Source: an uncultured Dehalococcoidia bacterium (GTDB taxonomy: Bacteria; Chloroflexota; Dehalococcoidia; Lucifugimonadales; UBA3495). Taken from it: a stretch of DNA of 64,000 nt. The stretch is from assembly GCA_951812535.1 (NCBI GenBank), contig CATOSK010000003.1:97001-161000 (forward strand), written 5' to 3'. Position 1 is the stretch's first letter. Every line of letters starts with the position of its first letter. The notes beneath the pieces are model-generated. The model was not told the origin of the DNA, ran no database searches, and saw only the letters and a program-made list of their open reading frames with translations. Shown here piece by piece: positions 6,526-57,285 of the stretch. The position numbers were made by a program, and so were the translations under genes.

Positions 6526-7252
6526 GGTCTCACCTCCTCGAACTTCAAAGGTCTACTTACTGTCGGCCCGGAGCCTAAACGACAAACAAAACGTGGCCCG
6601 GTGCCGCGTGATTGAAACCCGGTATCATGGCGTGGTGGAGTGACCCTTTTTCTCGGGCCTAAGGATGGGTGGATTGCGGTGAGAATAACATAAAACCCAG
6701 GGTAGCGGAAGGCGCACACCACCGTGGGGCAGGGCTATCGCCTTTGAAAGAAACCACCATGCAGGTGCCGCAGCTTGGTGCCTATATGCGCTGTTTCCAA
6801 CTATTGCAATGAGCAAGTTCTTGGCTATCCATCCCTCACTTTCTCCGGTGCGCGGCTGTATCGTGAACGTCAATGGGTCTTTCAGAACCCACATGCAACC
6901 GTCCTGCCTGCTGACACTGCCCCCCTTGCCAACCCCGCTGCCGCCTCTCTACTATGGATACCTGGAGCGGCCCAGGGGCCTTGGACAAGTTTCCTCAATC
7001 GGCCCCGAATGCCGCGATTATCAATAGATGCTGTTCGGCCAACCCTCTTCCCTGGCGTTGCCCCGCCCTCCCCTCGTCAATGCGACAAAATGCATCAGAA
7101 TGCGACAGAAATTTTTCCTCTCGCCCGGGTTAAGCCGGGACACCGGGCGCCGCAGCTCAAATTGTGGCCCGATTGAATCGCTGGTAAACTGCCATCATCA
7201 AACGGGCGCCTTACCCCGGCAGCAACCAAAAATTACGGCCCTGGAATCAGAG
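6526..7252. other. Long intergenic region with degenerate leader repeat and phased decamers
   Basis: No convincing gene is visible. A degenerate copy of the dispersed leader repeat lies at about 6970-7020, recognisable by GGACAAGTT and CCTCAA. Three 10-bp-phased copies of a TGYNNCARAA motif lie at 7081-7110 and run into a T-rich stretch. The part next to 6526 should contain the yacL promoter. Confidence 0.5.
7081..7110 (+). repeat. Phased decamer array (three units)
   Basis: TGCGACAAAA, TGCATCAGAA and TGCGACAGAA follow one another with no gap, giving a 10-bp period. They match the TGYNNCARAA consensus. A T-rich stretch follows. Confidence 0.75.
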
Positions 7253-7515
7253 CCGCCCAGCGAGCTTTAGACAAGTTGCCTTAATCGTGCGAGCGAAAGC
7301 GGCGACCCTAAAGAAGAAACCGCCCAGCGAGCTTTAGACAAGTTGCCTTAATCGTGCGAGCGAAAGCGGCGACCCTAGAGAAGAAACCGCCCAGCGAGCC
7401 TTAGACAAGTTGCCTTAATCGTGCGAGCGAAAGCGGCGACCCTAAAGAAGAAACCGCCCAGCGAGCTTTAGACAAGTTGCCTCAATTCTGCGAGCGAAAG
7501 CGGCGATAGTTAAAA
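7253..7515 (+). repeat. Four tandem copies of the 67-bp leader repeat
   Basis: Units start at 7253, 7320, 7387 and 7454, an exact 67-bp period, and are nearly identical. Each unit begins CCGCCCAGCGAGC, contains GACAAGTTGCCT, and ends with GCGAGCGAAAGCGGCGA. The last unit runs directly into the ribosome-binding site of the NIPSNAP gene. Short complementarities exist inside each unit (GTTGCC with GGCGAC; GCCGC with GCGGC), so an RNA structure is conceivable. Related copies lie at 8723, 18130 and 19366-19752. Confidence 0.9.
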
Positions 7516-7525: not shown

Positions 7526-8149
7526 ATGATTTACGAACTCAGGACCTACACCCTGAAGCCCGGAGCCGTACCCGAGTTTGAAGAACGCTTCGAAAAGCGT
7601 TTGCCTTTCCGCTCCAAGCACTCCGACCTCGGCTTTTTTGGACACACCGAATTCGGGCCCTTGAACCAGGTCGTCCACATCTGGCCCTACGAAGACCTCA
7701 AGCACCGCCAGGCCGTCCGCGACGCCATGGCCCAGGATGAAGACCTCAACCGGATGCGCGGCTCCGACCTCATCGTAGGCCAGGAAACCGAGATCTACAT
7801 CCCGGCCCCCTTCATGCGCCCCATGAGCGACCGGGCCCTCGGCAACATCTACGAAATGCGCAGCTACACCTTCCTGCCCGGCGCCATGCCCGCCCTCGTC
7901 GAGGCTTGGGGCAAGGCCGTCCCCCAGCGCGAGGAGTATTCCCCGCTGGCCGCCGGCATGTTCACCGAGCTTGGCGGACTCAACAAGTGGGTCCACATCT
8001 GGCCCTACGAGAACCTCAACGAGCGCGACCGCATCCGCGCCCAGACCCGCGCCGACGGCGTGTGGCCCCCGGGCGGCGCTTACCGCGACTCCATGATCAA
8101 GCAGGAAAACAAGATGATCGCCCCCGCCTCCTTCTCCCCCATGCACTAG
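7526..8149 (+). CDS. NIPSNAP family protein, two domains
   Basis: 207 aa with two tandem NIPSNAP ferredoxin-like (dimeric alpha/beta barrel) domains. Domain one starts MIYELRTYTLKPGA and domain two IYEMRSYTFLPGA (~110). Each carries the family signature VHIWPYE. No signal peptide or membrane segment is present, so it is probably cytoplasmic. Bacterial NIPSNAPs often sit in catabolic clusters, but their biochemical role is not established. The start is fixed by an excellent Shine-Dalgarno. A strong hairpin terminator follows, so it is probably monocistronic. Confidence 0.93.
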   Translation: MIYELRTYTLKPGAVPEFEERFEKRLPFRSKHSDLGFFGHTEFGPLNQVVHIWPYEDLKHRQAVRDAMAQDEDLNRMRGSDLIVGQETEIYIPAPFMRPMSDRALGNIYEMRSYTFLPGAMPALVEAWGKAVPQREEYSPLAAGMFTELGGLNKWVHIWPYENLNERDRIRAQTRADGVWPPGGAYRDSMIKQENKMIAPASFSPMH

Positions 8150-14656: not shown

Positions 14657-15285
14657 TTGCTTACATCCTCCGATTTAACGGGGTCGGAAAGTGCTCGCCC
14701 CCGCCTGAAATTGGCCCCATTTTGGCAGACACCCACTCCCAATGGCAACCGCGGCCTTCCAGCACCAAAGCACAATCGCAAAGTGCCGGATTGGAGTTTC
14801 CTTCAACCCATTTCCCGTCTTTCCCGCGAGCGCGGGAATCCCCCGCCCCAACCCCGCAATCTCGGCCTCGCCCCGGGTTACTGACACTTGCCTGTTTCCA
14901 ACCCCTCCGTTCGCCAGCTATCATTGAATCCATGCTTAGGTCTCAACCCGCCCTTTCCCCTCAGAAAGCACCAAAATGCACCAGAAAATGTTATTCTCCC
15001 GCCGTCATCGCCCGCACTGTCCGATCTTTTTTGTCCCGCGACAAAGTGGGACAGAACTTGGGAGAAGCACGACAAATCCCTGGAAGAACCGGATATCAAT
15101 GGTGCAAGACGCACCAGCCCGGCCCCCTGCTTCACCCTCAAATGTAGCCAAATGTCGCACTTTACAGCGGTTTCTTAAAACTCCCCTTCCGGGCTGAGGC
15201 AATGGTCCAGCCTGTCCCCCCATGTGATATGTTAGGGTAATTGAACCGCCGCCCTAGGCAAATCCAGCCCCGATGGAGACCATCC
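14657..15285. other. Long intergenic region with phased decamers and a palindromic repeat
   Basis: No supported gene is visible. A REP-like palindrome (TTCCCGCGAGCGCGGGAAT) lies at about 14820-14838. Two decamers of the TGYNNCARAA family lie at 14967-14986 (plus) and two at about 15134-15153 (plus). A reverse-strand pair with GTCCCGCGAC and AGTGGGAC lies at about 15033-15053. The region just before 15286 should contain the MmgE/PrpD promoter. Confidence 0.5.
14967..15153. repeat. Dispersed phased decamers
   Basis: Two adjacent units lie at 14967-14986 (AGCACCAAAA, TGCACCAGAA) and two at about 15134-15153 (TGTAGCCAAA, TGTCGCACTT) on the plus strand. A reverse-strand pair lies at about 15033-15053. 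All share the 10-bp phase within a pair and the TGYNNCA core. Confidence 0.6.
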
Positions 15286-16629
15286 ATGAACGCATCCCAA
15301 GCCCTCTCTCGGTTCATCGTCAACGCCACCTACGACCAGCTCCCCGCCGATGCCGTGGCAGCGGCCAAGGTCGCCATCCTTGACGGCATAGCCAACATGG
15401 TCGCCGGCTCCACCCAGGAACTCGCCGACATCATCGGCCAGTACACTCGAGCCTTGGGGGGCTCCCCGGACTGCAGCGTAATTGGCTGGGGATTCAGTAC
15501 CAACGCTCCCGCGGCTGCCTTCGCCAACGGCGTCTTCGGCCACTGCTTGGACTACGAGATTCAGGGCTTCCCTCCCACCCACGGCACCTCCTCCTGCCTC
15601 CCCTCCGCGCTTGCCTTGGGAGAGATTCGCCACGCCTCGGGAAAGACCATCATCGAAGCCTACGCCCTCGGCTGGGACATCCAGGGCCGGATGCGCGCCG
15701 CCTCGGCCCCGGCCTCCAATCCTGCCTTCCATCCGCCCGGCATGGTCGGCCCCCTCGGCGGGGCTGCCGCCAGCGCCAAGGTCCTCGGTTTGGACGTCCC
15801 CCAAACTCAGATGGCCCTCGGAATCGCCTCCTCCCGCACCGGCGGCCTCACCGCCAACACCGGCACAATGGTTAAGTCCACCCACCCCGGCAACGCTTCC
15901 CGAATGGGTGTTGAGGCCGCCATCCTCGCCGGCATGGGATACACCGCCAGCGAAGAGGTCTTCGAGTCTCCCGTCGGGTACGCCGCCGCCCTCTTTGGCG
16001 GCAACGTGGACTGGGACATCCTGACCGGAGGCTTCGGCGAACCCTGGCGTTTGGTGGATCCCGGCTACGACGTCAAGCGGTTCCCGGCCCAGGTCTACAT
16101 GCAGAACCCCATCGAAGCCGTCCTCAACCTCCGCAGTGAGCACAATCTGGACGCCTCCATGGTCGACCGCCTGGTCATCCACCGCCGCGGCCGCGGCCAC
16201 TCCGGCCCCATCCCCGCCAGCGGCCTGGACGGCAAGTTCAGCGTAGAGTACTGCGCCGCCGCTGCACTGCTCGATGGCCGGGTGGTCATCGACACCTTCA
16301 CCGACGAGCGCCGCTTCGCTGAAGACATGGAGGAGGCCCTCCGCAAGGTGCAAGTAGATCCCGACGCAGACGACAGCGGCGGTGTGCGCGTCACTGCCCA
16401 CCTCAAGGACGGCCGGACTGCCACTGCCGAATGCCGCACCTTCAAGGGCTCCGCCGGCAACCCCATGACTCGCGAGGAACGCATGGACAAGGTCTGGGAC
16501 TGCATCGGCCGTGCCCTCTCCCAGTCCGACGCCCAGCGCGTCATCGACCTGTGCGAAGACCTCGAAAACGTCTCGGACATCACCGAACTTATGGCAATCC
16601 TCGGCCAGGCGTCTCCCGCCCGCGCCTGA
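15286..16629 (+). CDS. MmgE/PrpD family protein
   Basis: 447 aa, full length for the family, whose characterised members are 2-methylcitrate dehydratase and cis-aconitate decarboxylase. The all-alpha N-terminal domain contains ILDGIANMVAGS and the conserved FGHCLDYEIQGFPPTHGTSS. The mid-region GGLTANTGTMVKSTHPGNAS has the family KS(x)HPG-type active-site loop. The exact substrate is unknown; many MmgE/PrpD paralogues occur in SAR202-type genomes. The ATG at 15286 is preferred over an upstream in-frame start, though the Shine-Dalgarno (GGAG) is distant. An alpha/beta hydrolase follows 19 bp downstream, probably in the same operon. Confidence 0.92.
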   Translation: MNASQALSRFIVNATYDQLPADAVAAAKVAILDGIANMVAGSTQELADIIGQYTRALGGSPDCSVIGWGFSTNAPAAAFANGVFGHCLDYEIQGFPPTHGTSSCLPSALALGEIRHASGKTIIEAYALGWDIQGRMRAASAPASNPAFHPPGMVGPLGGAAASAKVLGLDVPQTQMALGIASSRTGGLTANTGTMVKSTHPGNASRMGVEAAILAGMGYTASEEVFESPVGYAAALFGGNVDWDILTGGFGEPWRLVDPGYDVKRFPAQVYMQNPIEAVLNLRSEHNLDASMVDRLVIHRRGRGHSGPIPASGLDGKFSVEYCAAAALLDGRVVIDTFTDERRFAEDMEEALRKVQVDPDADDSGGVRVTAHLKDGRTATAECRTFKGSAGNPMTREERMDKVWDCIGRALSQSDAQRVIDLCEDLENVSDITELMAILGQASPARA

Positions 16630-19280: not shown

Positions 19281-19314
19281 GTCCATTCTTCGGGTCACCC
19301 GTGTGCCCCCAGGA

Positions 19315-19785
19315 CGGAGCCATTGGGAACCCCCGACCACCGGCCGGAGCGAAACCCGCCGGGAGCTGCCCAGCGAGCTTTAGACAAGTTACCTCAACAG
19401 AGCCAGAGAAAGCGGCGACCTTTGGAGGAAACCACCGCCCAACCTTGCGGCGGGTTGAGCGATTCCCCCAAGGCGGAACCATTGGGAGCACCCGGCCACT
19501 GGCCGGAGAGAGACCCGCCCGGAGCCGGCCAGAGAGCTTTAGACAAGTTGCCTCAACAGGGCGAGCGAAAGCGGCGACCTTTGGAGGAAACCACCGCCCA
19601 ACCTTGCGGCGGGTTGAGCGATTCCCCCAAGGCGGAGCCATTGGGAGCCCCCGGCCACTGGCCGGAGCGAGACCCGCCCGGAGCCGGCCAGCGAGCTTTA
19701 GACAAGTTGCCTCAACAGGGCGATCGAAAGCGGCGACCTTTGGAGGAAACCACCGCCCAACCTTGCGGCGGGTTGAGCGATTCGG
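19315..19785 (+). repeat. Three tandem ~159-bp repeats ending at the MFS start codon
   Basis: Units start at 19315, 19474 and 19633, an exact 159-bp period; the third is cut short at the GTG at 19786. Each unit has a left part (CGGAGCCATTGGGA, then CCGGCCGGAG), the dispersed leader core (GACAAGTT, GCGGCGACC), a TTTGGAGGAAACC segment, and a hairpin (CCGCC/GGCGG around a short loop). No open frame here looks like a protein. Confidence 0.9.
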
Positions 19786-32642: not shown

Positions 32643-32657
32643 GACTTTATTCTCCAA

Positions 32658-32745
32658 CGATTAAGTAACTATCTCAAAACGATTAAGTAACTATCTCAAA
32701 ACGATTAAGTAACTATCTCAAAACGATTAAGTAACTATCTCAAAA
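32658..32745. repeat. Four tandem 22-bp repeats derived from a transposon end
   Basis: Four perfect copies of a 22-bp unit (CGATTAAGTAACTATCTCAA plus AA) start at 32658, 32680, 32702 and 32724. The last copy is the left terminal inverted repeat of the element at 32727-32877. The array lies immediately upstream of the SDR ribosome-binding site. Confidence 0.92.
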
Positions 32746-32877
32746 CGTACATTTCGGAGGCCGAAAAGCGCGAAATGGGGATGACGGGGGCCTGGATTCC
32801 CGCCCCCGCCTGCGCGGGGGCAAGCTCTGCGCGGGAATAACGGGAGGAGGGCGAAGAGCTTTGGGATAGTTTCTAAG
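32727..32877. mobile_element. MITE-like element, copy 1 (151 bp)
   Basis: It is bounded by imperfect inverted repeats: left AAGTAACTATCTCAAAACG, right end reading inward TAGAAACTATCCCAAAGC. The interior has a GC-rich palindrome (CGCCCCCGCCTGCGCGGGGG) and no open frame. A second copy with the same layout lies at 45433-45573. The right end overlaps the stop codon of the penicillin-acylase gene. Confidence 0.75.
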
Positions 32878-56054: not shown

Positions 56055-56495
56055 CTAGCGGCCCAAATTCCGCAGGTAATGGTACATCCCGACTGATGCT
56101 GCGACTACGATGCCGCCGATCGGAGCGCCCCAGTGGAGCCAACTGTCGACGGTGTAGCCACGCCCCAAGTAGGTGGGAGTGACTTCATACCCCCAAATCA
56201 ATCCCAGATACGCTCCAACCACTCCTCCGGCCAAGCTCGCTGCCAATATCGCTGCAACCCGATACCAACGAAACCCGAAGATCATCCAGCCGCAATAAGT
56301 TCCCAGCCCAGCCCCCAGACCAATTCCCACGATGTAGATGTTGCGATGGACTTCGGGGGGCCAGGGGAACTGGATCATGGCGTTGAACACTGTGGCGGCC
56401 CATCCGCCGCAGATGCCCAGCATAACACCTACGCAGAATCCGGCTATGGTCCTGCCCAGGGGGATTACCCAGGGCCACAGTCCACCCTCAACCAT
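56055..56495 (-). CDS. Hypothetical four-helix membrane protein
   Basis: 146 aa with four predicted membrane segments (~10-32, ~52-72, ~80-102, ~122-138), glycine-rich throughout (GLGAGLGTYCGW, LAGGVVGAYLGLIWGYE). No conserved family is recognised. GGAG lies about 12 nt before the ATG. It is convergent with the MFS gene; whether the two are functionally related is unknown. Confidence 0.65.
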   Translation of the reverse strand: MVEGGLWPWVIPLGRTIAGFCVGVMLGICGGWAATVFNAMIQFPWPPEVHRNIYIVGIGLGAGLGTYCGWMIFGFRWYRVAAILAASLAGGVVGAYLGLIWGYEVTPTYLGRGYTVDSWLHWGAPIGGIVVAASVGMYHYLRNLGR

Positions 56496-57285
56496 GGCTG
56501 TATCGCATCTCCTGCTTGTGAATAGGGAACCGACAGTAACGAAGCCTGGGATTGGCCGGGATTACTCCCCGAAATGTTACCGTTTGCCTAGTATCATTAT
56601 ACGCCGGTTGGCGGGGAAGAGAATAGATTTGGGGCAAGAGGGCAATCGCATTTCGGCGGGGGCTTCATCGCGGCCCGGTCCCGGGCAGGTCCAGGGGACG
56701 GGACGCAAGGGCCGAGCGGGGCAACTCCGAATTTTCTTATTTGTGAGACATCCGGGGCATTTGAGCACGAATCGGGCAGGAGCCACGTCCCATCCTGCCT
56801 TTTTGCGGGTCCATTTGGGACAGGAGTTGGGCCACGATTGGGACACTTTGTGACAAACTGGGACATTTTGAGACATTTTGGGACACCGGCCCGGACTTTT
56901 CCCACGGACGGGCCGCCTCGATGCAGGGAACACTGAGGCAATCCCGTTCTGCCCTGTTTTGCCACATTCTGCCCCATTTCCTTCGGCGTTGGCCGACGGG
57001 CAGGGAGGAAGTTGATCCCGCATGGATCCATGGTAGGGGGCGGGCGGCGGGGTTGGCAAGCGGCGGGTGTCAGTGAGGAAGGACGATTGCAAAGTTGCAC
57101 TTGGGGGCCGGTAGTTGCCGGGATGGCTAACTTCCGGTTGCAAATCGGGGGAGCCAATGCCACAATAGCCCCCGCTGCATCATTCTCCGATGTATCGGGC
57201 CGTGGATAGGCGGCATCCGCCTTCCTGCGGCGAAGTCATCGCAACATCCTCTTTCCAACTTACGATATTCGAGAAATCAACCGCC
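56496..57285. other. Long intergenic region with a 10-bp-phased repeat
   Basis: No supported gene in 790 bp. Positions 56817-56886 hold the densest phased-decamer array of the window, with GACA at 56842, 56852, 56862, 56872 and 56882 (described separately). Elsewhere the stretch is GC-rich and featureless. The promoter for the CoA-transferase at 57286 should lie near its end. Confidence 0.5.
56817..56886 (-). repeat. Phased decamer array
   Basis: Read on the minus strand, five consecutive decamers follow the pattern TGTCnCAnnn, spaced exactly 10 bp apart, with one further copy at a shifted position near 56817. GACA on the plus strand recurs at 56842, 56852, 56862, 56872 and 56882. Similar but shorter arrays lie at 7081-7110 and 14967-15153. 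Confidence 0.85.

Follow-up and report, generated by a model that had tools for sequence, protein, structure and literature searches.

A TGTCNCA array phased at 10 bp in a Dehalococcoidia genome is probably an orphan leader copy of a small helix-turn-helix gene family and a predicted binding site of its protein

An array of five TGTCNCA units in the genome of an uncultured Dehalococcoidia bacterium is probably an orphan leader copy, made up of a promoter-like block (P1) and a 10-bp operator array, of a family of small TerS-like helix-turn-helix (HTH) genes, and also the binding array of the genome's own S-R-R HTH protein (C4:126246-126524), as judged from sequence comparison. The array lies on the minus strand at positions 56839-56885 of the window, the whole 64,000-nucleotide stretch of DNA that was analysed, and consists of the exact units TGTCCCA AAA TGTCTCA AAA TGTCCCA GTT TGTCACA AAG TGTCCCA, spaced by exactly 10 bp. 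The first-pass annotation had placed phased units over the span 56817-56886; the five exact units bear this out, and the remaining 56817-56838 (minus strand) holds only two degenerate units that continue the array at a spacing of 11-12 bp. Scanning both strands of the window revealed no second run of five TGTCNCA units. The two-unit pattern TGTCNCANNNTGTCNCA gave 41 exact matches in the 3.59-Mb genome versus 1 for a reversed-pattern control, and the three-unit pattern gave 16 versus 0. As to related genomes, the TGTCNCA motif itself is absent or rare in the family (0-2 matches of the two-unit pattern in each of 49 same-family genomes), which speaks against an element shared among relatives, whereas the same architecture is present with other units, which speaks for one.

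Reading the stretches around the pattern matches showed at least 31 copies of an element, 3 of them in the window, with the order P1, spacer, 10-bp array, usually a second promoter-like site (P2), and an unrelated gene. The common layout was present in 19 of the 25 two-unit loci read; the class A 3' box described below was missing from the other 6 (L054, L058, L059, L061, L063, and L066), of which L063 lies within a gene. P1 has the consensus CTGACA-N8-TTGNCAMCC...TANCNT and opens the layout in most of the 19 loci. The P1 pattern CTGACANNNNNNNNTTGNCAMC was counted 14 times in the genome (0 in the control), and an array follows every one of the 14. The class A array (TGTCNCA units) comes approximately 110-200 bp after P1, and on its 3' side are a 14-bp imperfect palindrome (TTTTGAG/CACGAAA), the box AAATGTCCCACAA, and an A/T tract. 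P2 is next at most loci, and in most copies the unrelated gene starts approximately 270-420 bp beyond the array. Class B elements share this P1, and examples of their units are TGCGACA and TGCAACA. A clear P1 or P2 is missing in a few copies of this genome, and both sites are termed promoter-like by consensus only, the sigma-70-like score coming from a matrix made for this analysis. Among class A elements that otherwise align, the 14-bp palindrome (TTTTGAGCACGAAA) keeps its place but is found in either orientation.

The element at 57073-56729 (minus strand) begins with a P1 block at 57030-57073 (CTGACA-N8-TTGCCA-N18-TACCAT), recognized by CTGACANNNNNNNNTTGNCAMC matches and sigma-70-like score. 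It continues with a first, class-B-like 10-bp array (AAATGGGGCA GAATGTGGCA AAACAGGGCA GAA, 56947-56979), the class A array, which is delimited by pattern counts and column conservation, an imperfect palindrome (TTCGTG/CTCAAA, 56759-56772) identified by comparison of the class A copies, and the conserved 3' box ATGTCTCACAA with its A/T tract (56729-56753), identified by comparison of copies. Beyond these, promoter scoring found a P2 site with a perfect TATAAT and a weak -35 (approximately 56596-56623), and an ORF of 146 aa (56055-56495) encodes an apparent membrane protein without a Pfam family. The array had been described as having no adjacent gene or promoter, which does not hold, because P1 lies 145-190 bp upstream and P1, P2, and the ORF are all on the strand of the array. 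The shorter arrays at 7081 and 14967, which had been named as its kin, are real and belong to the same type of element, approximately 40-125 bp 3' of their P1. The first element (6911-7108, plus strand) has a P1 block at 6911-6955, the class B array AATGCGACAAAATGCATCAGAATGCGACAG (7079-7108) with an A/T tract behind it, and a downstream gene of the NIPSNAP family (7526-8149, plus strand); the second (14881-14990, plus strand) has a P1 block at 14881-14924, the class B array AAAGCACCAAAATGCACCAGAAAATG (14965-14990), and a downstream gene of the MmgE/PrpD family (15286-16629, plus strand). The window also contains 67-bp and 159-bp tandem repeats with GAGCTTTAGACAAGTTGCCT (7253-7506 and 19306-19783), pieces related to which sit inside the P1-array spacer of two loci (L259 and L270), and 4.2 repeats of the 22-bp unit AACGATTAAGTAACTATCTCAA with 100% identity (32656-32747).

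Within the elements, only P1 and the array with its 3' box are conserved: array columns averaged 0.95 bit over 19 elements versus approximately 0.05 bit in spacers and flanks, and the spacers are random. Elements lie on the same strand as the next downstream gene in 30 of 31 cases (binomial p ~3e-8). The downstream genes are diverse by protein sequence and have no common function, so that a classical regulon is not obvious. The strand bias bears directly on the first-pass idea that the array is a platform for a nucleoid or partition protein. Such a protein would be served by multiple dispersed arrays per genome, but orientation and position independent of flanking genes, as in parS-like sites, were not seen; the strand is set by the downstream gene, the array classes correspond to individual HTH paralogs, and the motif is missing from most related genomes. 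The probability of this reading is practically nil. As for a recombination target, which the first-pass annotation had also put forward, the elements are dispersed and vary in presence between species, but neither a recombinase nor a target duplication was found. IS21- or Tn7-like transposon ends, suggested by the TGTC arrays, were also considered and set aside since the arrays had no recognisable transposase next to them.

One class A copy (L055/L297, C4:126246) continues in frame into a small HTH protein (MSHQLKNRQLSRRKLEV..GISRRTIHRWL), and where the array element in the window has its 3' box, this intact gene copy (L297) has an in-frame ATG ahead of its HTH domain. In two Dehalococcoidia/Chloroflexota contigs (L079 and L119), a related HTH gene has the array at its start codon. 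HTH genes number 29 in 15 of 50 same-family genomes, and across the order 86 HTH matches were obtained in 28 of 197 genomes. P1 commonly precedes the HTH genes of family f1, and many HTH genes carry a 3-unit 10-bp array with a motif of their own, which in family f1 is located in the N-terminal linker directly before LSPRQ and in other families consists of a ribosome-binding site and three ATG-containing units. With families f19 and f38 (L414-L418, L383, L389, and L375), the ribosome-binding site and the three ATG-containing 10-nt units result in ATGs in all three frames. Using 16/25 identity, 41 of 81 HTH genes from related genomes had a lag-10 array located at the HTH domain or shortly before it, against 0-8 genes at lags 7-9 and 11-15, and 26 of the 81 genes had no clear lag-10 array. 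The units of the HTH genes comprise TGTCCCA, TGCAACA, TGGAACA, TGCGACA, TGGCNCA, TGTCCGG, TGAGCGG, TGGGAGA, and TGGTGCC. In the genome studied here the two array classes fit the two array-bearing HTH genes, TGTCCCA going with SRRTIHRW and TGCGACA with HRATLHRW.

The bases of the units and the recognition helix of the cognate protein vary together. HTH domains were aligned, units were phased on TG, and pairs were dereplicated at <65% identity (n = 23 pairs; stricter dereplication leaves 13-16); shuffles served as the reference for the mutual information of each of the 113 protein columns with each variable base, and the remaining protein columns as a control for shared ancestry. X1, X2, and X3 denote the three residues preceding the conserved T of the recognition helix. 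The top column for bases 3, 4, 6, and 7 was always a recognition-helix residue: X2 for base 6 (z = 12.3, next column 5.1) and base 7 (z = 7.4, next column 3.4), and X3 for base 4 (z = 7.2, next column 3.5) and base 3 (z = 4.7, next column 3.8), the last being the weakest and close to its runner-up. This covariation persisted at 65, 50, and 45% dereplication and when the own genome was left out. At bases 6-7, an arginine at X2 goes with CA in 12 of 13 pairs and a glutamate with GG or GA in 6 of 6; at base 4, R or K at X3 goes with C (8/8), S with G (5/6), and T with A (4/4). Because the array and the recognition helix are tens of codons apart, coding overlap does not explain the covariation. 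The code assigns TGTCNCA to an S/T-R-R/K helix, which is the helix encoded at C4:126246, and TGCGACA to the H-R-A helix at C5:33663. When the recognition helix changes, the bases of the site thus change with it, as expected of an operator array, and in statistical terms it is this helix that specifies the unit bases. The array at 56839-56885 is therefore very probably the binding site of the S-R-R protein C4:126246, and the earlier proposal of a binding platform on a single face of the DNA gains support. The same covariation weighs against arrays that are merely phased A-tracts, i.e. curved DNA upstream of P2 with no dedicated protein: there are indeed short A runs with a 10-bp period (AAATGNNNNN) and A/T tracts behind the arrays, but curvature requires neither the conservation of the five variable bases within each class nor their covariation with the HTH helix, which makes this account exceedingly improbable. 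A structured RNA, suggested by P1 preceding the array, was set aside once the array was seen to track the HTH helix and to lie within coding sequence in other genomes.

The HTH protein matched terminase small subunit families of PHROG (phrog_2538, 6.5e-8; phrog_3218, 7e-6), its match to Pfam HTH_Tnp_1_2 was below the cut-off, and PDB TerS chains were matched only at E 0.3-0.6; its AlphaFold model was poor (pLDDT 49) and hence unsuited to a fold search. The PHROG matches suit a phage- or GTA-like pac cassette, in which the HTH protein would serve as small terminase and the arrays, dispersed over the chromosome, as sites where packaging starts. The TerS proteins of SPP1 and SF6 are HTH proteins with a promoter and direct repeats at the start of their own gene, the SPP1 pac direct repeats spanning the promoters and the start of the small terminase gene, and binding of pac DNA by the SF6 domain was not sequence-specific (PMC4737164). 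The genes described here likewise have direct repeats at their own promoter or start, but they differ from the phage systems in the exact 10-bp units with a recognition-helix code, in being chromosomal and multi-copy, and in their partner, ORF2. Neither a large terminase nor a capsid gene was seen beside the HTH genes, ORF2 belongs to no known family, the orientation of the elements follows the downstream genes, and no relative of the HTH protein was found in viral contigs with the L079 protein as query. A pac cassette is very unlikely, and because the TerS similarity is weak to moderate and no large terminase lies beside the genes, we did not class them as a TerS/pac system. TGTCCCA arrays in other phyla are mostly in unrelated contexts, with 1 scanned locus outside the order having a similar helix nearby (L125). 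At this locus, from Phaeodactylibacter, the HTH motif GISRKTLYRWL is found approximately 150-220 bp before a TGTCCCA array (L125:1650-1676, plus strand), in agreement with the Chloroflexota code. Two viral contigs (L189:865-936, minus strand; L215:10237-10308, plus strand) have 10-bp TGTCCCA arrays within phage ORFs resembling replisome organisers (peptide ..KNVPEMSQNVPDMSRTCPTMSQNVPK..), which could be replication-origin iterons within a gene, and an Oscillospiraceae ORF that is membrane dipeptidase-like by eye seems to hold an in-frame TGTCCCA array insert (L148:3128-3201, minus strand).

Classical autoregulated HTH repressors have an operator at their own promoter or start codon and further operators elsewhere. 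The family studied here resembles them in both respects and differs in having at least three direct 10-bp units in place of a palindrome, an operator that travels with its promoter as a unit, and a specificity diversified among paralogs. Xis and BldC are oligomerising small DNA-binding factors that act on phased sites, and RdfS is also an oligomerising DNA-binding factor (PMC11963761). Small HTH proteins and oligomeric binding of phased sites, predicted here, are common ground with these factors; the differences are another HTH family, arrays at the gene's own 5' end together with dispersed orphans, and no integrase. With one unit per helical turn, several monomers would share one DNA face, and the HTH protein may bind the arrays cooperatively. 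We infer that the array exerts transcriptional control: bound protein would repress or road-block transcription from P1, and the HTH gene, with an array that covers or precedes its start codon or sits in its N-terminal coding part, would be autoregulated. In orphan copies, the array may gate read-through into, or the activity of, P2 and the downstream gene.

Elements are numerous in several other genomes, TGACANNNNCCCCTTGCC being counted 51 times in the single-contig genome G049, 15 times each in G003 and G048, and 13 times in G016 (controls, 0). Arrays fit an HTH gene of the same genome or genus for most copies read in G049 and for several in genus g3 genomes and G020; for the G049 class AAATGTCCGA, no cognate HTH gene was detected. 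ORF2 is often next after HTH genes (e.g. in G117, G141, G049, and at G000:C5:34083) and is a neighbour in more than 20 loci, with at least 21 copies in G049 and in G020. It encodes a helical protein of approximately 110-130 aa, found in G049, G020, G016, and other genomes. Searches of Pfam, NCBIfam, and PHROG gave no family match for ORF2, its model (pLDDT 73.5) had no structural match at E<1, and neither ORF2 nor the HTH protein matched transposase catalytic families. G049 has three copies of a 545-bp P1-array-ORF2 unit with 93-96% identity and sharp edges, in which no inverted ends or target duplication were visible by eye, and two neighbouring genes of genus g3 are separated by 572 bp in G012, where the element lies between them, and by 212 bp in G010, where it does not. 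From these sharp-edged, near-identical copies and this presence and absence, mobility of the element is likely, and the dispersed copies would have arisen because the P1-array-(HTH)-(ORF2) unit is or was mobile. REP/BIME sequences with RAYT and MITE-like repeats also combine many short intergenic copies with few gene-bearing ones (PMC2817692). The elements described here share this distribution, but contain a promoter-like block and a phased operator array and follow the strand of the downstream gene; palindromic ends were not present and no transposase was recognised.

The same evidence of movement, together with truncated ORF2 copies and subfamilies such as L060/L072 and L259/L270, would also be expected if the P1-array pieces were decayed remains of a mobile or duplicating HTH-ORF2 family that have no present function at orphan sites. 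Against this, the arrays and P1 of the own genome stay conserved while the spacers do not, the orientation is biased, and an HTH relic was recognised behind one orphan array only (L051). We consider decay unlikely and favour the orphan leader copy with its binding array. Such elements were not described in the open-licence papers covered by our literature search. They could, as a tentative proposal that we hold to be possible, represent an undescribed class of small mobile element in Chloroflexota, composed of P1, a self-recognising 10-bp operator array, a TerS-like HTH gene with a modular code, and ORF2, that, as it spreads, places promoter-operator units in front of host genes and so brings these under the control of diversified HTH paralogs.

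An unexplained intergenic repeat has thus become one half of a named protein-DNA pair, and the code that links the two can be tested: the final two bases of the unit are predicted by one recognition-helix residue (R or E), the fourth base by another. The tens of HTH-site pairs form a natural series for how HTH proteins read phased direct repeats, and a protein family without known function, ORF2, has been brought to light. If the copies are functional, promoter-operator modules would be spreading through the genome alongside diversifying regulators, in an uncultured group with little regulatory biology.
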